A DNA stretch of 64,000 nt, taken from the NCBI GenBank assembly GCA_022376465.1, contig JACDTU010000004.1, positions 1,612,001 to 1,676,000 on the forward strand. The letters run 5' to 3'. A model generated the notes under the pieces. The model was given only the letters and a program-made list of their open reading frames with translations. It was not told where the DNA came from and did not search any database. Made by a program: the position numbers and the translations under genes. This DNA is from Cubamyces lactineus. Lineage: Eukaryota > Basidiomycota > Agaricomycetes > Polyporales > Polyporaceae. Each line of letters starts with the position of its first letter. Position 1 is the stretch's first letter. This document shows positions 1 to 61,900 of the stretch, piece by piece.

Positions 1-765
1 GACCCACAGCAGTCCATAGACCTGCTCTTCTGGAATGGCATGAAGTCTTGACGCTCTTCCATGAGATGGGACATGCGCTGCATTGTGCGTCTATAGCATC
101 TGGAACTGACCGTCAATACTCACTATCTCGTAGCTATGATCGGCAGGACTGAGTATCAAAACGTATCCGGCACTCGTTGCGCTACCGATTTCGTCGAACT
201 CCCATCCATCTTGATGGAGCATTTCTTGACCTCCCCGGTTGTTCTGGGTCTCTTCGATCCGCAAGGATCCCTCCCGGCCCACCACAAAGGCGACTATCAT
301 GAAGATCCATGCCGCTCCATCGACACCTACACGCAGATCCTCCTTGCAATACTTGACCAAGTGTATCACTCTCGAACGGTACTGTCCGAAGGCTTCGATT
401 CTACGGCAGCGCTAGCAGAGCTGTATCGCACGCAAGGGCTCATCCCGTACGTGGACGGTACCTCGTGGCAAACACAATTCGGTCATCTTTTCGGGTATGG
501 CGCGACATATTATTCATATCTGTTCGACCGTGCGATCGCTTCTCGAGTATGGCGTAACCTTTTCGCTAGCGATCCCTTGAACAGGGCCGTAGGAGAACGA
601 TACAAAGCCGAAGTGTTACGCTATGGAGGTGCTAGGGATCCATGGGAGATGGTAGCAAAGCTTCTGTCCTTACCGCATCTGCAAAAGGGCGACGGAGAGG
701 CGATGTCGGAAGTTGGCAGATGGAGAATAGAGGATGATATCGCCATGCCCGCTGGAAGGCATTGA
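1..765 (+). CDS. OCT1 (mip): Mitochondrial intermediate peptidase, C-terminal part (5' truncated by window)
   Basis: M3-family zinc metallopeptidase that removes an octapeptide from a subset of imported mitochondrial precursors in the matrix. The window holds only the 3' end. An exon finishing at 84 encodes FHEMGHALH with the HEXXH zinc motif (HEMGH at 58-72). An intron occupies 85-133 (GT...AG, 49 nt). The last exon, 134-765, reads [13 protein letters not shown]..., the usual substrate-pocket segment after HEXXH, and includes the downstream H-[FY]-[GA]-Y-G-A-x-Y-Y-type motif ([16 protein letters not shown]). An AG at 18-19 may be the acceptor of an earlier intron, so the true exon edge could be near 20. 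It ends at TGA 763-765, tail to tail with HD2. In many Agaricomycetes this gene borders the HD mating locus, which is what is seen here. Confidence 0.95.
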
Positions 766-1221: not shown

Positions 1222-2960
1222 CTACGACGACGCAGCGAGAGGCGCCAGGATCGATATGTAATCCGTGGAGGCCTCGAGCATAGACTCCCAAGATAACACA
1301 TCACTATGCCATACGGGCCATATCGGCGACCGCTCGTCCCAAGACTTTGTATGTGCGATACCAGGTCCCGGGGCAACGGTGGGAAGCCTCGATGACAATG
1401 ACGGAGGGGTGGCAATTGGTGATCCGGTGTCGCTGTCAGAAGCACTGGACGACAGAGAACTTATCGAAGACATTCTGGGGAGAGAAAGCCCGCGGGTCGA
1501 CACGGAATCCCGAGGATAGAGCACGTGTGTAGGGGGATGCTTGGGTACACGGCGAGGTAGCGCACGCTTCATGCGTTGAGTTGGGCCTCTGTGGACTCGG
1601 ACGCTACAATCCGGGCTCGCGTCGGAGCAAGAGCGCCTTGTTACTGAAGGGTGATCGGAAAGGGGAGATATAGACGAGGGTGCAGCGTTGACATGCGCCG
1701 AGATACGGGCAGAGCTGGGGAACCTTCGACGGGGTGGAATGCAAGCGGGATGTGGTGCCTTGGGACATCGCGTGACGAATCCGATGCAGCAAAATGTACC
1801 GGCTGATTGAGCCCCAGGATGCTGTTGCTGCTTAGACGACGTCTCGTCGGATATCTTCATCCTTGCCATGGATTCGATTACTTCAGAGATGTCAACATGC
1901 GTTTCTTGGATACCTCGGATCTGTTTTCGATGCGGCCAGGGTGTGGAGAACTGCTCCTGACTCGAGTTGACGGGGAATGGATCATACGAACACAACGGAG
2001 GGTATGGCGATGGGAAGGCATGGGGTGGTGCGACGAGGTTGAACTTGTGGGGACTTTCGCTTTCAGACGTCGGACGATCCTTCGAAACAGTTTCACGACT
2101 TGACTAGGTTCACAGTGCATGCTGGACTTACAATATATGGCTCAGAGCTGTCCTCTGTGCACTCTAACGGTAGCGCTGCCTCGACCAAACGGTTCTCCAA
2201 TTCATCCATGAGAGGAACGCTTGCATCACGTTTCTTGAGCTCCTTTCCTTCCTTTCTGTGTCTACTTCTACGGTTCTGGAACTGCCTCGGCGTTAACATG
2301 CTGCAAGCGTAGAGCACACGCATACATACCCATACATGGATCTGCCTATAGTCCATGTCACACTTCGCAGCGAGCTCGTGCTTGTCCAGCCTGGATGGAA
2401 ACGCATTGTTGTCGAAGAATGCTTCCAGGAGCGGTATTGCCGCCTACATTCACATCAGTAGGTGAAGGTGATCAAAAGGAGGAACGCACTTGATTGAACG
2501 GCCGTCTGCGTGAAGACGGCGCGGAGTCGCAGGCCTTTTGCTTGAATGCGGCTTGAGCCCGCAAGAAACGAGGCGCAAAGTCTTCTAGAATATATGATGA
2601 CCAGCGATGGAGGGTTTGCTGATAGATCGTTACGTATGCTGATAGCAACAGGGAGAAGGCTTTGTCGTCTTCGTAGTATGAAGCACGAGTTCGCAACAAC
2701 TGTCGTCGCTCCGCAAAGTCGACCAAGCACCTGGTCTTCAGGCGCTGCGAGAAACGGGCCCATGCAGCCGCTACTTGATGGGTAGTGGACTCATCTAGGC
2801 CAAGTTCAATGAGGCGCGAGTGAACGGAGTCGGGTTCTGGTAAGATCAAGTCGCGTAGGGGTAAAGTAGCAGATGTTGCACTTGATGGTGGAACACGCGA
2901 TGCGAGTTTTCGTGTAGTGGTGTGGGCTCTAGAGCCGATGCGGCGGAGGGTGGGCAGCAT
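1222..2960 (-). CDS. HD2: HD2-class homeodomain mating-type transcription factor
   Basis: One partner of the HD1-HD2 heterodimer that forms after mating of compatible nuclei and switches on dikaryon development. Model: exons 2490-2960, 2330-2443, 2132-2281 and 1222-2079 (minus strand), 530 aa, all phases closing. The N-terminal ~150 residues are the variable region expected to govern partner choice. A canonical homeodomain spans about residues 151-208, starting RRRPFNQ and containing the recognition-helix signature WFQNRRSRHRKEG; an intron falls exactly between W and FQNRR. After it come a basic stretch (KELKKRD) and a long Ser/Pro-rich tail ending AASS. The WFQNRR form, as opposed to the WF-N-RRR form of HD1, marks it as HD2. 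The third intron (2080-2131, acceptor AAG) is the least certain; a TAG acceptor would make it only 28 nt. It is divergent to HD1, 300 bp away. Confidence 0.9.
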
Positions 2961-3260
2961 TGTGAGGGAGAGATGAGGGAATCAACGGATCCTAGGTGCG
3001 CTCGATCTCACAGTACTTACAGGATGAGGACAATGGGGAAGCATCGTGGGAATGCGTTTGTTTGTTTCGCTTTGTTCCCATTGTTCGACTACGCTATATC
3101 AGGCACTCACGTGAGCGCTTACTGCTTAGCCACATACTGACCAGTGACTACATTATCTACCTCAGTTCACGACCGCCTCGTCGTTGCTTCGTCATCCTCT
3201 GACCTACACGTTCGTCTGATTTGTGCTTATCGCTGGGTTACTTGGCCTCCTCTGCTTAAG
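2961..3260. promoter_or_regulatory. Shared divergent HD2/HD1 promoter
   Basis: The 300 bp between the start codons of HD2 (minus) and HD1 (plus) must carry both promoters. No TATA box is convincing on either side. I could not assign operator motifs by eye. Confidence 0.6.
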
Positions 3261-4859
3261 ATGCTGTCGCTCCAAGATCGTCTTATCCTCGCTGAGGATG
3301 AGTTCTTCGCTGCCCTAGCCGAAGGTGATGCAGCACTATCTACCTTCAACGAACGCTGGGAGAAACTGGTAGAAGATTTGAACGAGGCTGCCGACTCTAT
3401 TGGCTTAGACGTGGAAACTTCTCAGCTAGCACACACAACGGCTCTGCGTCTAATCACCTTGGCCGATACCTCCATCGAGCTATACGCGAACTACAACACC
3501 ATCACCTCTCAGCTGATGGGCCAAATAGACGAGCTCATGTCCGAGTTGACGCTCTCGGACGTGTCCCGGTAACTGCTCTCCATTAATGGTCGTAAGAACG
3601 TCAAGTCTTATACACTCTTCCTAGGGATTTCAGAGGTCGTACGAAACGGCGTCGAGACCAGACCTATTCCGGCTCCCGTTCCCGTTCCCGTTCTGCATCT
3701 CCCTCCGTTGTATATCATAAGAAGCGACGGTGCGTATACCGGTCAATGTGTGTGATATCTACTCAACGGTTCACTTGACTAGGTTGGCCACGCTCAATCC
3801 CCTTTCACCGACATCTTGCTCGCACCACGACCCATCATCAATGCCGTCTCCCTTGACATCTTCTCCCCAAATATCTGTCCCTTCATATCCTACACCCAAT
3901 CCACCAACTCCTATCGATCATTCGAGACACCACAATGTTGGAAAACGCCGATTCTCCGATACGGACACTTTGTTGACTTGCCATCCAGCGAAGAAGCGCC
4001 GTGTGGGTCCCCGATTGCATGCCGTCTCCGATTCTTTCCAGCTCAAATCGGCAGCGAACCCCACAAGCGAGGCACGCGTGGGAGAATGTCGTCAACCTGG
4101 AATGGTCCCGGGCTTTGTGGACCCTTCAGAAGAAAATGTGCTTGCTGCATTCCACAGGAGCCCACGTCCGGGCAATCCTCACGTTGGAGACGGTATCAAT
4201 GGTGCGCATGCCATTCATCTCCGTCTGTATATTACTAACATTTGACAGTTTTGTCGATGGACCTCAACGCGACGTATAACCGAGACAATGATCTTGGACT
4301 CGACACGAGACATATGAACGCCTCCGACTCCGAACTAGACGCCATCTTGGAATCCCTGCTCGGCACCGGCAGTACGCTGGCCAATCTCCCAGCGCTCTCC
4401 CCTACAACCCCGCCTCTCCTTACACCCGACCTTTCGCCATATCTTCCGGCCGTGTCTTCAGTAGGCAGCAGTGTTGAAGATCTTCTGGAAGGCACCCTTG
4501 GTCCCGCATTATCGGTTTCCCACAAGGCCAATCTTTGCAGTCTGAATCCGTCGTTGCACATTGCGGACGATCTGGCAGTTGCGCTATCCGGGTCTTACGA
4601 TCTGCAGCCGCTCATAGGACAGACGTCCAATATGGACAGGTTCATCAGTGATGTCTCCATCACGCCTTCGTTCGCCAGCGACGTCACGCAACACGCGATC
4701 TTCTCCACCGACGGTTTGGGTGCATTCTGCGGGTCCCCCTACCGATCTCTCTCTGCTCTCTCTGCTCCCCAATCCCCTTCACCCGTCGCGTCCTCGGGTT
4801 CGGATAACTTCTTTGAAGTAGCTTTGAGCGATTTGTTTGCTGTATCCCCCAGTATCTGA
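3261..4859 (+). CDS. HD1: HD1-class mating-type protein lacking a homeodomain
   Basis: Assigned to HD1 from three things: divergent position beside HD2 and the mip gene, an N-terminal ~100 aa helical region of the HD1 type (MLSLQDRLILAEDEFFAAL..., with AHTTALRLITLAD and DELMSELTLSDVS blocks), and a C-terminal half with basic nuclear-localisation clusters (KRRRDQ, HKKRR, AKKRR) and an acidic/Pro/Ser activation-like tail. Model: exons 3261-3568, 3625-3729, 3783-4201 and 4249-4859, 480 aa, closing in phase. Where HD1 proteins normally continue into a ~60-residue homeodomain ending WF-N-RRR, this one passes through a 56-nt intron straight into DFRGRTKRRR and a Ser-Arg run. No frame in the locus encodes a WFxN helix outside HD2. 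The HD1 homeodomain has been reported as partly dispensable in Coprinopsis, so the product may still work as the HD2 partner. The in-frame extension to 3144 does not begin with ATG, so 3261 was chosen. Confidence 0.8.
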
Positions 4860-5742
4860 CATCCGCGAACAGGAGTTCTTCCATAGACCCCTTTCCCCCT
4901 TAGTATGACCAACTATCAGTTACTTGTACGATATCCACTCGATGATTGTCTCAATTCCGTGTAGCATCACTACTCGTATTATCGCGCGTACAATCAGCTC
5001 ATCGTCATGCTCTTTTGCTCTCGTTCGTCGTCCTTTTTAGTCCCATGTACTTTTGGACATTTTCATAATGGACCTGGGGAATGTTATATACCCGATTGAT
5101 AACGATAGGATAGAGTCTAACGTGGGCGCTGCGACGGAACATGGGCATATCCGTACTCCGGCTACCATCTTGTTCATATATCCATATCCCACCTGTGTCT
5201 AGCTATTTAGAATGCGTGTCTGTGTATCATGGCTGCGCACGGACGCGAGAATAGGCTGGATAGTGGATGGCACGAGGATGGTACGGATGTGGCACTTTGC
5301 AGCCAAGCGCCCTGGCATTTCTTCAACAGGTTGCCCTCCTCGAGGCTTTAAGATAGGCCCAACGTTACCGTAGATTCGACCACATCACATGACAACCGCG
5401 TGATATGTCGACCTCCAAAACGACGCCTTCCGCCTCGATTTTTGCGGAGAAAAGCGGCCATGAAGCCTCGTAGAGGATCTCAGAGGCGTCTGCAGCTCCT
5501 TTGAAGTCTCATCGAGGGGGGTGCAAGGGAGCGAGAGGCGTTGTGACAGGCGTGACATAGTGGGTCGAATAGGGCCTATCTTACACGCGACGAAATACTT
5601 TCTCGCTGTATGTGACGTGATGCCTCCTTGCCTCGTTCATAAGGCAACGAGATGCGGATGCCCACTTCTGAGGTCAAACTACTAGACAAGACGTTGTACA
5701 CAAGTCTCATTCACGATAAAGGGCATCGATGTAGACTCTACC
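4860..5742. other. Intergenic spacer right of HD1
   Basis: About 880 bp between the HD1 stop and the stop of the DUF7721-type gene (convergent). No frame over 60 codons and no recognisable repeat or RNA gene. Confidence 0.5.
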
Positions 5743-6685
5743 CTACATGAATTTCGAGGCCTGCGTTTGCGATAAGTCTGGCGAAACCAATGCGACATGC
5801 TCCGATCAGGCTTACCATGCTCATGAGCCCCCCAAGTCCCCCGCTGTTTTCGCCTCCAATGGAACCACCGCTGAACTTAGATTGGACAAGTAGTTTCATC
5901 ACCGTCATGGCGGCACTGTTGACAGCATCTTGCTTGTTACCAGAAGAAACACCGCCAGATTTATCGAACAGTTTCGATGCTTCGGCCATAGCCAAACTGA
6001 TAAGTTGCGATTGCGATCCTCCACTACCGTTTCCGGAGGTGAATTGCTTGAGAACCTATGTGTCCATTAAGCCGCTTCAGTTGTGCACGTTGTATGGAGA
6101 TGACCGCACACACTTGCAATGCAGCTGCGCTACCAAGTGAGCCAGCGTTCAAGGAACTGGCGGACCCCTCTTCGTACGCCTTACGGTGAGCATGTTGCAC
6201 CCCGTTCTCGTCGATGGGTTGCTCATGTTCGCTCTATAGTTGACATCTATCAGAAGCGTCGCTCAAAAGTATATCACGACGATACAAGCCTTGTTCTGTT
6301 TGATGAAGCTGAGCGCGCTCGAGAATAACGAGTTGTCGCCGCTACCCTCACGGCTCGCAGTGTTCACGACTTCATCATCATCGACTGTACCAATAGACTT
6401 TAGCGTCATCGTGTTCAATGCTCAAGACGTATACATACACTGGGGTCTATCATACTCGCTGGAGGAGTGCGGCGCATTGTACTCATGTCCGCCGGTCTTC
6501 GAGACGTCCGCTTCACATTGCGAGATCGTTATTAGTTCTCGCGAACCCGCCCGTAGTACGACGGCACTTACAGTGAGATCGTTGGTAGGCATCCATGCCC
6601 TGCTTAGCAAGATTCATAAAGCTGTCCTGTATTCATCGATTTGTGTCAGTATCGCCCGTCATAAGAGGACGCCAACACAGACCAT
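5743..6685 (-). CDS. DUF7721-type fungal protein, candidate beta-flanking gene
   Basis: Small fungal protein of unknown function, 204 aa in seven coding exons: 6683-6685, 6572-6626, 6439-6510, 6278-6384, 6114-6233, 5816-6055, 5743-5760. The first coding exon is just the ATG, giving MDSFMNLAKQGMDAY. The middle carries FSSALSFIKQNK and QPIDENGVQHAHRKAYE. The C-terminus has the family block SGNKQDAVNSAAMTVMKLL followed by a Gly-rich run and ends GGLMSM-ASKFM, with ASKFM on an 18-nt last exon. These blocks match what I know as DUF7721 proteins. The donor of the 6234-6277 intron is uncertain: GTGATA gives a 5-residue insert, while a GC donor 15 nt earlier would remove it. Position next to the HD pair suggests the 'beta-fg' locus marker of Agaricomycetes; that identity is inference. 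Confidence 0.8.
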
Positions 6686-24364: not shown

Positions 24365-25845
24365 TCAGTAGGTCGAGCCGATGGGACCGAACTTGATGTT
24401 CGAGAAGGTGACCGAGGAGCTGGCCTCGCTGGCCTCGATGGTGGCGGGGATACCCGAGTTGGTCGGGCAGGGGCCACGAGAGACACCGGGGTTGGTGGCG
24501 GGGACGTCGGTGGGGTAGTCGCTGTCGAGCCAGAGCATGTTGGCAGCGTGGTCGTCCCAGATACTCATGACGAGGGCCATGCCCTTCTGGAAGGAGGTGC
24601 CCATGGTCGCAAGACCGCCGAGCTTCTCGAAGGTGTTGGTGTCGCCGAAGACCTCCTTCTGGGCATTGCAGAACGCGTCGGTGACGGAGTCGAACTCACC
24701 CAGGCCGGGGATGTTCGTCTTGGAGTTGGCGATGACGCGTCCGTTCTGGACGTAGAGGCGGCGGATCTCGTTGAGCGTGCCCGTGGACTGGTTGTTGTTC
24801 GTAAGGAACTGAGTGACGACCGTGAACTTCTGGTTGGTGTCGACCGTCTTGCCGGGCCCGAGGAAGGTCTGGTCGCCCATGCGGAACGAGTTGAAGTCGC
24901 AGCCGTCCTTGTCGCAGATGCCGTCGTAGCGCTCGTCGCCGTCACCGCAGTCGGTGCCCTCGCAGCGGGTCTGACCCTGGACGGAGCAGACGTGGGGCGT
25001 GAACGCAGCACCGTTCATGTTCGCCTCCCAGACGTCCATCTCGTTACAGCACGTGCCGAACTGGCCAGTACCCGCGTTGGGGTCAGAGGGAGAGCCCTCC
25101 CAGCCGAGGATGTTGGCCTGTACGAATCACGTCAGGGTCGATCGCACTGAAAATGAGGAGAATTACGCTTACCTCACCGTTGATGAACTTGATGTCCTGA
25201 GGACACTGAGTGTCGCAGTAGCCAGTACCGTACTTGGAGCCGGCCTTGTTGGACGGGAAGCGAGCCTTGCCACCGTCAGCGTCCATCTCGACGAAGTAGA
25301 GCGCGCCGTTGAGGCCGCAGGGGAGGTTCGACATGTCGACGTCGAAGGTGAACTCCTGGTTGTTCATGTTGAACATCTCGTAGTTGTTGTCGTTCTGGTC
25401 CATGAGGTAGACACGGGAGCCGATGTTCTTCGAGTACGGGCCCTGGGTCACGAACTTGAGCGTGAGCGCGTTGCCGTTGGTGGTGATACCGTAAGTGCCT
25501 GTATGTCTGTCAGCATCTGTGCGCGTTAGCAGTATGCTTGGTATGCGGCTTACCAGCGTAGTCGGCACCGTCGAGAGCACAGTTGCTGGCGCAAGTGACA
25601 GGGTCGGGGCACAGAGACGCGTCCCAGGTGTTGCCGGTGTAGCAGTTGGTGCTGCTACCGGTAGCGTGGAGCCAGCGCCAGTTGGAGTCGAGGACGACGG
25701 TGTGCTGCTGGGTCTGGCAGTTGTTGGCCGACGTGCACTGCTGGACAGTGAGGCGGGGGTGGCTTTCCGCCGTGAGCGTGCCAATCTGCTGACCGTAAGC
25801 GGTCGCGAGCAGAGAGAATGCGAGGAGAGAGGCTGCCGGGAACAT
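24365..25845 (-). CDS. GH7 cellobiohydrolase I, catalytic domain only
   Basis: Secreted reducing-end exo-cellulase that releases cellobiose from cellulose. Three exons (25554-25845, 25173-25498, 24365-25117), 456 aa. An 18-residue signal peptide (ending TAYG) precedes [15 protein letters not shown], the classic mature N-terminus beginning with Gln. The catalytic triad sits in [10 protein letters not shown]232 nucleophile, D234, E237 acid/base (precursor numbering). Many Cys residues fit the ten-disulfide GH7 core. The protein stops at [12 protein letters not shown], right after the last strand of the catalytic domain, with no linker and no CBM1. Codons are strongly GC3-biased, as in highly expressed genes. 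A TATAAG lies 81 nt upstream of the ATG. Together with the MFS carriers it points to a lignocellulose feeder. Confidence 0.97.
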
Positions 25846-27804: not shown

Positions 27805-30800
27805 ATGAGCCAAGGTATGCCCCAGTCTTCACATCCACGGGTTATTGGGTGTAACAGCTATGTGCAGACTTTGAGACCACGCAGCAGTCATTCTATGATG
27901 ACGGCTATGGGATGGACGGTGAGGGCGAGGAGTACGAGGAGATCACGCAGGAGGATTGTTGGGCGGTCATCACCAGTTTCTTCGACCAGAAGGGTCTCGT
28001 GCGACAGCAATTGGACTCGTTTGACGAGTTCGTTCAAAACACTATGCAGGAGCTGGTAGACGAGAACGCGGACCTCATCCTTGACCAAGCGGATCAGCAT
28101 ACTGGACACGAAGCCGACGTCACTCGACGATACGAGATCAAGTTCGGACAGATCTACCTCTCCCGGCCGACGGTGACGGAGGCGGACGGCTCAGTAGTAC
28201 CGGTCTTTCCTCAAGAAGCACGTCTGCGGAATCTCACCTATTCAGCTCCCCTCTACATCGAGATGAGGAAGAGGGTGCTATTGGGCCGTGAAGATCCCGA
28301 TAGCGCTACGGGAGACATGATATGGGAAACAGAACAGGAAGATAGGGAGGAGGACACTAGAAAAGTGTGGATCGGCAAGGCGAGTATCTGTGTCACTTTC
28401 GCAGGACGTTGTCTCATTGAATGTGTATAGGTCCCTATCATGCTTCGATCCACATTCTGCATCCTCCACGGTCTTGGTGACGACGAGCTTTACGATCTCA
28501 ACGAGTGCCCGTACGACTCTGGAGGGTACTTCATCATCAACGGTTCAGAGAAGGTCCTCATCGCACAGGAACGCATGGCAACGAATCACGTATATGTCTT
28601 CGCCAAGGCGCAGCCCTCTCCCATCAGCTTCCTTGCAGAGATTCGTAGTGCCGTAGAGAAAGGTGGGAAGACGATCAGCCAGTTCCAAGTGAAGCTGTAC
28701 CATCGTAGTCAAGAGCGCTCGGTAGGTATCAACTGGTGCATCTACTGACTGCCCACTCAATGGTTTGCGTCGTACAGCTTGGAAACGTTATGAAAGCTAC
28801 AATACCCTACATCAAAGTCGACATTCCGATTTGGGTCGTTTTCCGTGCGCTTGGCGTCATATCAGACCGCGACATTCTCGAGCATATCTGCTACGACATG
28901 CAGGACAACCAGATGCTGGAAATGCTGAAGCCCTGTATTGACGAAGGTTTCGTCATTCAGGACCGCGAGGTTTGTGAGGGGGTAACACCGTCATCAAACC
29001 AGCACTGACATCGTGCAGATTGCACTCGACTATATTGGTAACCGTGGCACTACGACTGGTCTCAACAGGGAGCGCCGTCTGCGTTATGCTCAGGAGATTC
29101 TCCAGAAGGAGATGCTTCCTCATGTGTCGATGGCTGAAGGGTCCGAGTCAAAGAAGGCGTACTTCTTCGGCTACATGATTCACCGTCTCCTCCTTGCCGC
29201 ACTCGAGCGGAGAGACCTCGATGATCGTGATCATTTTGGCAAGAAGCGCTTGGATCTCGCCGGTCCTCTCTTGGCCAACTTATTCCGTATGCTGTTCCGC
29301 AAGCTGACAAAGGATGTGTACCGGTACTTGCAGAAGGTCAGTATCTTGTGTGGTTCGCTGCGGTAACATACTGACCATCACCATCACAGTGTGTGGAGAC
29401 ACACAAGGAATTCAATCTTTCGCTTGCTGTGAAACACAATACCATTACCAACGGACTGAAGTACTCCCTTGCTACCGGCAACTGGGGAGATCAGAAGAAG
29501 TCCATGTCGTCGAAGGCGGGTGTCTCGCAGGTGCTCAATAGGTATACCTATGCGTCGACACTATCTCATTTGCGTCGGTGCAACACACCTCTTGGTCGCG
29601 AGGGCAAGATTGCGAAGCCTCGTCAACTGCACAACACGCACTGGGGTATGGTCTGCCCGGCTGAGACCCCCGAAGGCCAGGCTTGCGGTCTTGTAAAGAA
29701 CTTGTCTCTTATGTCTTGTATCTCTGTGGGTTCCCTTTCCGCCCCTGTCATCGAGTTCTTGGAGGAGTGGGGACTGGAGTCACTGGAAGAGAACGCGCAC
29801 TCGTCGACGCCTTGCACGAAAGTCTTCGTCAATGGTGTCTGGATGGGTGTCCACCGGGACCCGGTCAACCTCGTGAAAACGATCAAGAAGCTCCGTCGGA
29901 AGGACGATATCAGCCCCGAAGTATCCGTCGTCCGCGACATCCGGGAACGCGAACTACGACTTTACACGGACGCAGGCCGTGTCTGTCGTCCGCTCTTCAT
30001 CGTCGAGAACCAACAGCTCCTCTTGCAGAAGAAGCACATTGAGAACCTCGTACGTGGACAGGAGGACCCCGAATTCGACTACAAGTGGGACAATCTGATC
30101 AAGGACGGTGTCATTGAGCTCCTGGACGCAGAGGAGGAGGAAACGGTGATGATCTGCATGACGCCTGAGGACCTCGAGAATTCCAGGCTTCGCGCAGCCG
30201 GCATAGACCCTCACGCAGACGACGGCGAAGTCGACCCATCCGCTCGTCTGAAGGCACCAACCAACACACACACTTGGACCCATTGCGAGATTCACCCTAG
30301 TATGATCCTAGGCGTCTGTGCGAGCATCATCCCCTTCCCCGATCACAACCAGGTACGTTCCTTCCCACCCCGTTGACCGCTTTTTTGACCCCTTCTGCAG
30401 TCTCCACGTAATACATACCAATCTGCCATGGGCAAGCAAGCGATGGGTATCTACCTCACCAACTTCTTGGTTCGCATGGACACGATGGCGAACATCCTCT
30501 ACTACCCTCAGAAGCCGCTTGCGACTACGCGGTCTATGCAATACCTCCGCTTCCGGGAGCTGCCTGCCGGCCAGAACGCTGTGGTGGCTATTCTGTGCTA
30601 CAGCGGCTACAACCAGGAAGATTCCGTCATCATGAACCAGAGCTCGATTGACCGAGGTCTGTTCCGTAGTATGTACTACCGGAGCTACATGGACCTCGAG
30701 AAGAAGAGCGGTGTTCAACAGCTGGAGGAGTTCGAGAAGCCGACTCGCGACACGACGCTCCGGATGAAGCACGGCACGTACGACAAGCTGGAGGACGACG

Positions 30801-31959
30801 GTCTCATTGCGCCTGGTACCAACGTCAACGGCGAGGATATCATCATCGGGAAGACGGCGCCTATTCCCCCTGACAGCGAAGAGCTCGGCCAAAGGACACG
30901 GACTCACACGAAACGTGACGTTTCGACACCATTGAAGAGCACCGAGTCGGGCATTATCGACCAGGTCCTCATCACGACCAACTCGGAAGGTCAGAAGTTC
31001 GTCAAGATCAGGGTGCGTTCCACACGTATCCCCCAGATTGGCGACAAGTTCGCCTCCCGTCACGGTCAGAAGGGTACCATCGGTATCACGTATCGCCAGG
31101 AGGACATGCCGTTCACCGCGGAGGGCATTACGCCTGACATCATCATCAACCCCCACGCTATCCCGTCCCGTATGACAATCGGTCACTTGGTCGAGTGTCT
31201 GCTTTCCAAGGTCGCGACGCTCATCGGAAACGAAGGCGACGCGACGCCGTTCACGGAGCTGACCGTGGAGGCCGTCTCCCAGTTCCTGCGCCAGAAGGGC
31301 TACCAATCTCGAGGCCTGGAGGTGATGTACCACGGCCATACCGGTCGCAAACTCCAGGCGCAAGTGTATCTCGGGCCCACGTACTACCAGCGTCTGAAGC
31401 ACATGGTCGACGACAAGATCCACTCTCGAGCTCGTGGGCCTGTGCAGATTCTCACTCGCCAGCCCGTTGAGGGTCGTAGTCGTGACGGTGGTCTGCGGTT
31501 CGGAGAGATGGAACGTGATTGTATGATTTCGCATGGTGTGGCTGCGTTCTTGAAGGAGCGTCTGTTCGAGGCTAGTGATGCCTACCGACTGCATGTATGC
31601 GATATGTACGTCTCCTCTGATATGCTCACCAGCATGAACGGCATACTGACGACTCTGTTTCAGCTGCGGTCTCACGGCTATCGCCAACCTCGTACGTATA
31701 CTAAACCAATGGCTGCGTAGGCGAATTACTGACATACCTATGCCTACAGAAAAAGCAGACGTTCGAATGTCGCGCGTGCAAGAACAAGACTGCATGTTCA
31801 CAGATTTACATTCCTTATGCCGCCAAGCTTCTCTTCCAGGTGAGCTCCCTCTTTTCTCGTGCTCGCTTCGTCGTGACTCATCCTCGCCCATAGGAACTGC
31901 AAAGTATGAACATCGCAGCGCGCTTGTACACCACGTCGACAGGTCGTATCAGGGACTAA
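27805..31959 (+). CDS. RPB2: DNA-directed RNA polymerase II subunit RPB2
   Basis: Second largest catalytic subunit of RNA polymerase II. Ten exons (27805-27814, 27868-28379, 28431-28721, 28778-28969, 29019-29336, 29390-30352, 30401-31605, 31664-31691, 31750-31839, 31894-31959), 1224 aa, the same size as yeast Rpb2. Seen in order: VPIMLRS and [17 protein letters not shown] (lobe), NNx-rich fork segment with [32 protein letters not shown] hybrid-binding region, [10 protein letters not shown] with the conserved Lys/Gly, [12 protein letters not shown], and the C-terminal zinc clamp with cysteines in VCDICGL and FECRACKN split over three exons. Intron 28380-28430 has a GC donor (AAG|GCGAGT), confirmed by uninterrupted GKVPIMLRS. 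The first coding exon is only 10 nt. The gene is convergent with PTM1, 90 bp apart. It is a housekeeping gene and standard phylogenetic marker. Confidence 0.98.
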
Positions 31960-58905: not shown

Positions 58906-61900
58906 TTAATCCGTCTCGTCGGTATGATATCCTGCGCGACGCATCGCGCCCAGTCTGTGGCGAGCAGCGCCGAGCTCCTTCTCCAGGCGCAGGATCTCGA
59001 CCTGCTGCTCCATCTCGCGCCGCTTGAACTCGAGCACGGCCATGTTCTTGTAGTCCACATCCTCTTCCTGCGCCTGCTTCGCGGCGATCGTCTTGACCTG
59101 CTTGACGAGCGCCTTGCACGCGTCCGTGACGGCCTTCGCCGCGAGCTCGAGGCGCTCCTGGGTCTTGGACATGAGGTTCGCCTTCACGCGCGACGCGGCG
59201 ACGAGCTGCGCGGTCGCGGCCGCGACCTCGTTCGACGCGACGATGAGCTGCTCGAGCGTGTGCGTGCCGGAGAGGACGCCGTCGGCGCTCTCGATGAGCA
59301 GGTTCGTCGCGAACGCGACCGAGCGCGCGGCGGAGATGAGGCCCTCCGTCCAGCGGTTGTTGCGCTTGTAGAACTGCTGCGTCGTGCTCGTGCCCTTGCC
59401 CTGCGCGACGATCTCCTGTTGCGACTCCGTCGCGGCCTTAATCAGCCGCGCGATCGCGTTCGTGATCGCCAGTGCGGCCTGCAGGATCGAGTCGTGCACC
59501 TGCAGGTCGACTGCGCTGAAGCGGCTCGAGTCGCGTGGACGTGCGATGAGCTGCTGGAGACGCTCAGTTGCGGCCTCGATGGCCTGAGCAGCACCCAACA
59601 TTTCTTGCTCGACAAGGTCGCCAATGTCGCCGTTCTTCTTGTCCAGGGGACCAGCCTTGCCGCCCTTAGGGACCAGGCCGTCGACGACCTCGGAAAGCTT
59701 GGTGAGCGCCGCGCGCACTTCGCCATTGTTGCGCATGGCGACCTCCTTGCGCTGCGTCGGTAGAGAGAGGAGTTCAAGCTTGTACGAGGAGAGGTTGAGG
59801 AAAGTCCGCAGGCCAACATCGCCGACGTTCTTGGCGACATTGATGAGCTTGTCCGAGACGTCGTCCTCGACTAGTCGGGTGATACCCTTCGTGTTGATCA
59901 GGACATCCGCGAGTGACTGCGCCAGCTCGTTTGCGCCCTTGATGACCTCGACGTGATCACCACCAGGTTCTCCACCAAGGTAGAGGTTGAAGACCGTCGC
60001 AAAGTCCGTGGCATTGTTGATAGCCTTCTCGATCATCGAGAGCGTGTACTCGGGAGTTGAGTTGAGATTTCCGGCCTGCGCGGGCGACTCCAACTCGTAG
60101 ATCGCCTCATCTACCTTCTGCATGCATGCCTTCAAGATAGAGTCTTGGAGGAGATCAGCTGTCGTCGTTCACGGCACAGGGTGCAAAGTCGTACCGATGA
60201 TCTCGTTGAGCTTCTTCTTGTGGTCCAAGATGAGCGTGTCAATCTGAGCGAGCGTCGCCTCCTCGTTGAGACCTTGGTTCTACGGCAACAATGTGAGCGC
60301 GTTGTACGGGTCGTGGTGGAGCCGTCGTACCTGCTGGGCTTCTGAAAGCTGCCGCAGACTCTCGTCCATGCCCTCCTGCAAAATGGCGATCTCTTGATCC
60401 TTCTCTTCACGAAGGCGCTCGAGGTCACCATTGGCACTGTCGAGCTTAGCCAGAAGATCGTCGATCTGGATTTGTTTCGCCTACATGGGCCATGAGTATT
60501 GTCTATTGTAGATAGGCTGCGACAGGGACTTACCCGCAGGGAGTCCTCCAACTCAGTCAGTTGACGGTTGTACTTGGTGAGCACGCTCGAGACTTCGGAG
60601 CTCTTCGACCTGGTAGCATCTTCCGCACGCTCGTTGGCGAAGTTGATCTCGCGGCGAAGCCTGTCAATCTCGTCCTTGTGGGCGGCCTTCTGGCGGTCCA
60701 AGTCAAAGCGAGCACGGTCGCGCTCGCGAATCATATCCGCAAGTTCGAGGTTCTTCGCCTTCAGGTCGCGTTCCATGCGCTCCATCTTGTCGATGGCCTC
60801 CTGCGCGGAGTTCGCCTTGAGCTGCATCTGCTTGTACTTGGCCAGCATGTCGAGATGCTCCGAACGGAGTTGGCTGTAGAGCTTCGCCAGGGCCTCGTAC
60901 TTCTTCTGCCACATGGTGACTTGCTCTTGGAGTTGCCTTATGAGCTCGTCCTTGGACATCATCTGAGAGTTGATGTTGGTCGAGACGCTGCTCAGTTCAC
61001 TCTCCAATGCTTTGACTCTCTGTATGCCATAGGGTCAGAACGCGCGCCTGCCAATGCAAAAGTGAGACGCACCCGGTCATACTGCTCAAGCATGAGTTGG
61101 TCACGCTCATATTGCCCACGCATCGCCAGGAGCTCGCGTTCAAGATCGTGGATCTGCTGGGCCGCCTGGTTGCTATACTGCATCATTTGCTGCTGCATCT
61201 GCTGCTGTAACAGCTGTTCCTGAGCCAAACGTTCCCTCTCGGCTTGCTCTGCTTGTCGTTGCTCGAACTCGCGACGCTGTTGCTCTTCCTGCTCACGACG
61301 TCGACGTTCCTCTTCTTCGCGAGCAGCAACAAGGGCAGCCTGCTGATCCTCGTATTGCTTGAGCAAGCGAGCCTGCTCATTTATTTCTGCTGCATCCGGC
61401 TGAGGGGTAGCAGGCGGCGGCGACTTCGCTGCGGCTGTGGTTGGACGAGCTGGTAAGTCAGGAGCGGTGCCATTGTCCATCAGGTTTGGTGGTTCCTAAA
61501 CATAGATTATCTTTAGCCCGAGAACACCTGGAGCAGTATGTAGCTTGCTTACAGCTCCAAGCTTGGGCACATTGATTAGACCGGTCAGGTACTTCAGGTT
61601 GGAGCACTCGTAGTAAAACTTGCGAAGCGCATAATGCTGCTGGCTATAACGCTGTCGCAGAGGTTCGAGGGCTTCCGTGTCATTCGTTCCTGCATCCCTT
61701 GTTAGCATGCAATCACTCTCTACATAGATCCTGTACCTACTTCTGTGCATCGCACGAAGCATGCTCGTGATGAAGCGATAGATTCCCCAACTCTCCTTGA
61801 CCAAGGGGACGAGCGCCGATATCCTACATTCGTTGCTGGCTGAGTGACGGAAGTGCGCGAAGATCATCCTCTGGAAAGAGTCTATCTGATCCTGGAGCGC

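Follow-up and report, generated by a model that had tools for sequence, protein, structure and literature searches.

The window analysed, 64,000 nucleotides of Cubamyces lactineus (Polyporaceae, Polyporales), lies on contig C34 of an assembly of 36.3 Mb in 43 contigs and contains a mating-type locus near its left end. The locus includes an HD1-type mating gene (3261..4859, plus strand) of four exons, encoding 480 amino acids in which a homeodomain was not detected. The exons that we assembled from the sequence (3261-3568, 3625-3729, 3783-4201, and 4249-4859) are separated by three GT-AG introns (56, 53, and 47 nt) and join into a 480-codon reading frame without an internal stop. The deposited C. 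lactineus protein C8Q73DRAFT_663973 is identical to this reading frame letter for letter (100% over 480 aa). Across an intergenic region of 300 bp between the two start codons (2961..3260), the HD2 mating gene (1222..2960, minus strand) is transcribed divergently. Its homeodomain (PF00046, 55.6 bits) occupies residues 151-205 of the model and is split by two introns, one of which interrupts an otherwise intact WFQNRR motif. As modelled, the last HD2 intron (2104-2131) measures 28 nt, shorter than introns usually are; the true one is probably longer and keeps the frame, so that the model may be off by a few codons with the homeodomain unaffected.

Beyond HD2 lies the 3' part of mip, encoding mitochondrial intermediate peptidase (peptidase M3; 97..765, plus strand; PF01432, 158.5 bits), whose left limit at 97 is that of the open frame rather than a proven exon border and whose name follows the locus order in the accessible text of PMC4101180. 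On the other side of the HD1-type gene, a probable beta-flanking gene (beta-fg; 5738..6685, minus strand) is named solely from the position and orientation given in the accessible part of the same paper. Its first exons read MDSFMNLAKQGMDAYQRSH after partial splicing, its 3' limit is again an open-frame limit, and Pfam searches of two pieces of it gave no match. Ordinary neighbours elsewhere in the window are a glycoside hydrolase of family 7 (24365-25126, minus strand), an Rpb2 RNA polymerase subunit (30389-31720, plus strand), and an I/LWEQ (talin-like) protein (58906-60168, minus strand).

In the usual account of mushroom mating type, two homeodomain proteins bind DNA as a pair. The class-defining feature of HD1 is a TALE-type homeodomain, as stated in the part of PMC4101180 available to us, and Pfam, six-frame, and profile comparisons found none in the protein described here. 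We therefore named the gene HD1-type by its N-terminus and its position, divergent from HD2, and not as a homeodomain protein.

The only Pfam match listed for the protein at E<=10 was the Mating_N recognition/dimerisation domain (PF12731, residues 5-86, 3273..3518, plus strand), scoring 31.2 bits where the cut-off is 21.4, in a search whose HMMER filters remove most matches above an E of about 0.1. Six-frame translation of positions 2900-4912, with X at each stop, gave Mating_N in one frame, no homeodomain, and no match in the other five frames. Genome-wide scans with two homeodomain families (E<=0.001 and E<=10) matched within the window at HD2 only. When a profile of five HD1-type proteins, the C. 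lactineus protein and the four relatives introduced below, was compared by hhalign with a profile of four homeodomain sequences, the probability was 0.1%; as a positive control, one of the genome's own homeodomains, left out of the profile, scored 97.2%, although this control is not itself an HD1 homeodomain. The WF and WFxN-type patterns that we used had zero matches in the five proteins. The C-terminal Mating_C domain likewise had no Pfam match in any of the five, and a Mating_C scan of the genome returned zero matches, but as it detected no control either, it carries no information. The HD1-type protein is thus without a homeodomain detectable by any test made. A sequence-only reading of this DNA had claimed that the homeodomain was absent from HD1, that no frame between about 2.9 and 4.9 kb encoded a WFxN helix outside HD2, that the N-terminal recognition region was retained, and that an intact HD2 stood next door; these observations all held, and the scan of all frames with homeodomain profiles that it had called for found nothing to contradict them.

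We considered whether the absence could be an artefact, with a homeodomain exon missed in the gene model or lost in assembly. The introns were inferred from sequence, which leaves some room for such an error, but the deposited model is identical, neither the six frames nor the genome-wide scans placed a homeodomain in the window outside HD2, and proteins encoded on other contigs and in other species show the same absence. We rejected a missed exon on the six-frame scan together with the identical deposited model, and an artefact of any kind is very improbable.

The N-terminal part of the protein is the part that is confidently modelled. AlphaFold2, run with the five-protein alignment, predicted three confident helices over residues 4-98, with block-mean pLDDT of 72-93 over residues 1-100, within a model of low confidence beyond them (mean pLDDT 47.8, pTM 0.26 overall). 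A Foldseek search of this low-confidence model against the PDB gave 49 matches at E<=10, none at E<=0.001 and none described as a homeodomain, and was uninformative. The place where a homeodomain would be expected is taken by a linker (residues 104-189, 3626..3936, plus strand) that is 44% serine, threonine, and proline, carries a net charge of +10, and is modelled with pLDDT mostly below 50. Its basic clusters include RTKRRR and KKRR. Further along, a short helix of low confidence is predicted at residues 305-315 (4329..4361, plus strand), where Asp, Glu, and Leu are frequent. LD..L.S stretches align in four of the five HD1-type proteins, that of C. lactineus among them, and the fifth lacks them; the helix is possibly an activation motif.

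The basic character of the linker could mean that a homeodomain remnant, too degenerate for profiles, still touches DNA there. Such a remnant has a precedent in Pycnoporus cinnabarinus, whose HD1 is described as keeping a homeodomain that has degenerated and has a helix II deletion but can still be aligned (accessible text of PMC4101180). Against it stand the profile-comparison probability of 0.1%, the lack of any helix between residues 99 and 304 in the low-confidence model, the failure of the WF and WFxN-like patterns to match any of the five proteins, and a mean pairwise identity of 0.21 in the linker among them. We regard a remnant as unlikely, albeit the least unlikely of the alternatives to outright loss.

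To place the protein among its relatives, we used searches that depend on five-residue words in common, which gives close relatives an advantage; two of them scored a list limited to about 8,000 candidates, so that the lack of more hits means little. Among the matches listed, four other relatives were found: Ganoderma adspersum (557 aa), Trametes cubensis (412 aa), Trametes polyzona (488 aa), and a fourth of 499 aa. A profile search with four of the proteins added no relative among the matches listed, and a search with residues 1-110 only added T. polyzona. Since this last search scored the N-terminus only, its hits were not selected for homeodomain absence, and all three hits other than the query (the C. 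lactineus protein, G. adspersum, and T. polyzona) lacked a homeodomain. The comparison with related polypores that had been suggested from the sequence alone went the same way throughout: a Pfam homeodomain was found at E<=10 in none of the four other relatives. Mating_N was present in all four, in one above and in three below the curated cut-off.

All five proteins have the same layout, in which a conserved N-terminus is followed by a linker that cannot be aligned, then by the conserved KRR.S...GPRLHAVS box and a variable tail. Mean pairwise identity is 0.52 over residues 1-103, falls to the low linker value over residues 104-189, rises to 0.58 over residues 190-222, and is about 0.2 beyond. 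The basic box itself (residues 190-222, 3937..4035, plus strand; KRR.S ... KKRRVGPRLHAVSD) has 12 of 33 columns invariant in the five proteins and is a probable nuclear localisation signal joined to a conserved motif. That motif, GPRLHAVS (residues 213-220, 4006..4029, plus strand), follows directly on the basic cluster and stays invariant in all five proteins while the preceding linker and the following tail align poorly. Pfam searches at GPRLHAVS in the five proteins gave no match other than a non-significant viral-capsid match (E 0.84) in one relative. Because the N-terminus and the basic box are conserved across three named genera while the linker drifts freely, protein conservation, though no formal test of selection, argues that the HD1-type protein is being maintained and is not decaying.

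These comparisons bear directly on the possibility that the gene is a degenerating, non-functional HD1 allele. The loss of the class-defining domain would fit such decay, but the 480-codon frame is open with three GT-AG introns, N-terminus and basic box show conservation, the four other relatives have the same layout and also lack a Pfam homeodomain, and no other place in the genome matches Mating_N at E<=10. A degenerate allele, which had been put forward as the alternative to natural loss, is accordingly improbable, more so than a homeodomain remnant in the linker.

The whole-genome scan just mentioned (Mating_N, E<=10) led us to reject a second HD1 or another allele within the assembly, as it matched at the HD1-type locus only. 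Comparison of the full protein with the genome gave, besides the four exons of the gene itself, a single weak match on contig C39 (E 0.004, 31% identity, residues 122-206), which covers mostly linker. We also asked by eye whether another homeodomain gene could be a displaced HD1. This inspection covered part of the genome's homeodomain matches, and the loci seen resemble general homeodomain regulators, with one TALE gene on contig C3 in addition; none of them matches Mating_N, and we rejected them as candidates.

Two of the homeodomain genes on C34 (1542382-1542498 and 1558649-1558759) lie approximately 70 and 53 kb to the left of the window, on the mip side. By eye they look like general regulators, and they recall the distant third HD gene that Wolfiporia is reported to have on the same chromosome. 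Elsewhere on C34, at 476200-477532, three homeodomain matches fall within 1.4 kb on one strand, two homeodomain-like motifs being in one open frame, and this is possibly one gene with several homeodomains. All 15 STE3 matches at E<=0.001 fall on contig C14, where positions 394427-426723 hold a cluster of STE3 pheromone receptor genes, about five by position, which is the probable B mating-type locus. STE3 genes on C14 and the HD locus on C34 fit a mating-competent tetrapolar fungus, separate contigs being no proof of unlinked loci.

Together, these results favour, with a probability of about 0.8, an intact HD1-type gene that has lost its homeodomain, probably long ago and across the Trametes-Ganoderma lineage, with HD1 serving in recognition, import, and activation and HD2 alone binding DNA. 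The known roles of the same parts in Coprinopsis, as also given in the accessible text of citing papers, lead us to propose the following steps. The helical N-terminus of HD1 would pair with an HD2 of different mating type, the basic box would carry the pair into the nucleus, the variable tail would help to activate transcription, and the HD2 homeodomain alone would read the DNA. The loss itself would be old and common to the Trametes-Ganoderma lineage, a shared state that is supported by five proteins among the matches listed in searches favouring close relatives. We conclude that the HD1-type protein is probably functional; in all likelihood it works as a partner-recognition subunit, and related fungi have already yielded reports of this kind of protein. 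We would venture a broader proposal more tentatively, at somewhat less than even odds: that a single old loss took place in the Trametes-Ganoderma lineage, that each heterodimer of the A mating-type switch has since had just one DNA-binding domain while HD1 was remade purely for recognition and activation, and that GPRLHAVS is functional in its own right.

For the sequence-only reading, which had proposed natural loss of the dispensable half at this locus, the outcome is divided. Its view of HD1 as an intact dimerisation/activation subunit fits best with the open frame and with the conservation of N-terminus and basic box in relatives. Any sense that the loss is fresh at this locus, or that the case is new, is not supported: the relatives found share the state, and missing or degenerate HD1 homeodomains are published for other Polyporales in the accessible text of PMC4101180, PMC10607315, and PMC9503964. 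The finding is much less surprising in this light.

If one partner has no homeodomain throughout a lineage while its recognition part and basic box are kept, this would be a natural parallel to laboratory deletions in Coprinopsis. The HD1 homeodomain of Coprinopsis cinerea is reportedly not essential in the HD1/HD2 heterodimer, as work attributed to Kues in 1994 and to Asante-Owusu in 1996 is said to have found. A homeodomain-less HD1 makes it testable how a heterodimer with one homeodomain finds its target. It is also a warning for annotation, in that an HD1 search based on the homeodomain would miss the C. lactineus gene and the relatives found here. The division of labour proposed for C. 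lactineus resembles that in the Coprinopsis HD1/HD2 heterodimer, as described in the accessible sources; the difference is that natural Coprinopsis HD1 proteins carry the homeodomain.

The literature that we found, in a coverage that mostly leaves out subscription papers, consists of species-level remarks and holds no clade-wide account of the HD1 homeodomain. Outside Polyporales, HD1 homeodomains are described in the accessible texts for Pleurotus, Agaricus, and Trichaptum. Within the order, homeodomain features are reported for Polyporus umbellatus HD1 from SWISS-MODEL models (accessible text of PMC11766841), and loss can therefore not be assumed across the whole order. The available part of PMC4101180 recounts that earlier work on Postia placenta had searched for the HD1 motif without success. 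The accessible passages on Ganoderma lingzhi, Sparassis crispa, Wolfiporia cocos, and Taiwanofungus camphoratus make no statement on the HD1 homeodomain.

The C. lactineus protein, with its HD1-type N-terminus, no detectable DNA-binding domain, and an intact HD2 beside it, has the features of a homeodomain-less Polyporales HD1, and three published cases come close to it in the parts of the papers available. In Wolfiporia hoelen, neither the WFXNXR nor the three-helix motif was detected in HD1, and the conserved domain and motif were detected in HD2 (PMC9503964); the difference is that this species is bipolar and has its third HD gene on the same chromosome. Pycnoporus cinnabarinus shares with C. 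lactineus membership of Polyporales, a related N-terminus, an intact HD2 homeodomain, a place for HD1 beside beta-fg, and a defective HD1 homeodomain, and its a1-1 protein of 495 aa is close in length to the 480 aa found here. Its homeodomain, with degeneration in helix III in addition to the deletion in helix II, can still be aligned (PMC4101180), whereas no remnant was detected in C. lactineus. For Grifola frondosa, which mating crosses helped to identify as tetrapolar, an HD1 C-terminal domain is reported (PMC10607315), in contrast to the missing Pfam Mating_C match in C. lactineus. In other respects the likeness is close: the Grifola HD1 has a nuclear localisation signal but lacks a DNA-binding domain, its HD2 is intact, and the gene has four exons in the same gene order and orientation. 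As far as their accessible texts go, the Pycnoporus (PMC4101180) and Grifola (PMC10607315) papers make the same functional argument on HD1, that of the former, citing Asante-Owusu 1996, being that function can survive a defect in the HD1 homeodomain as long as that of HD2 works.
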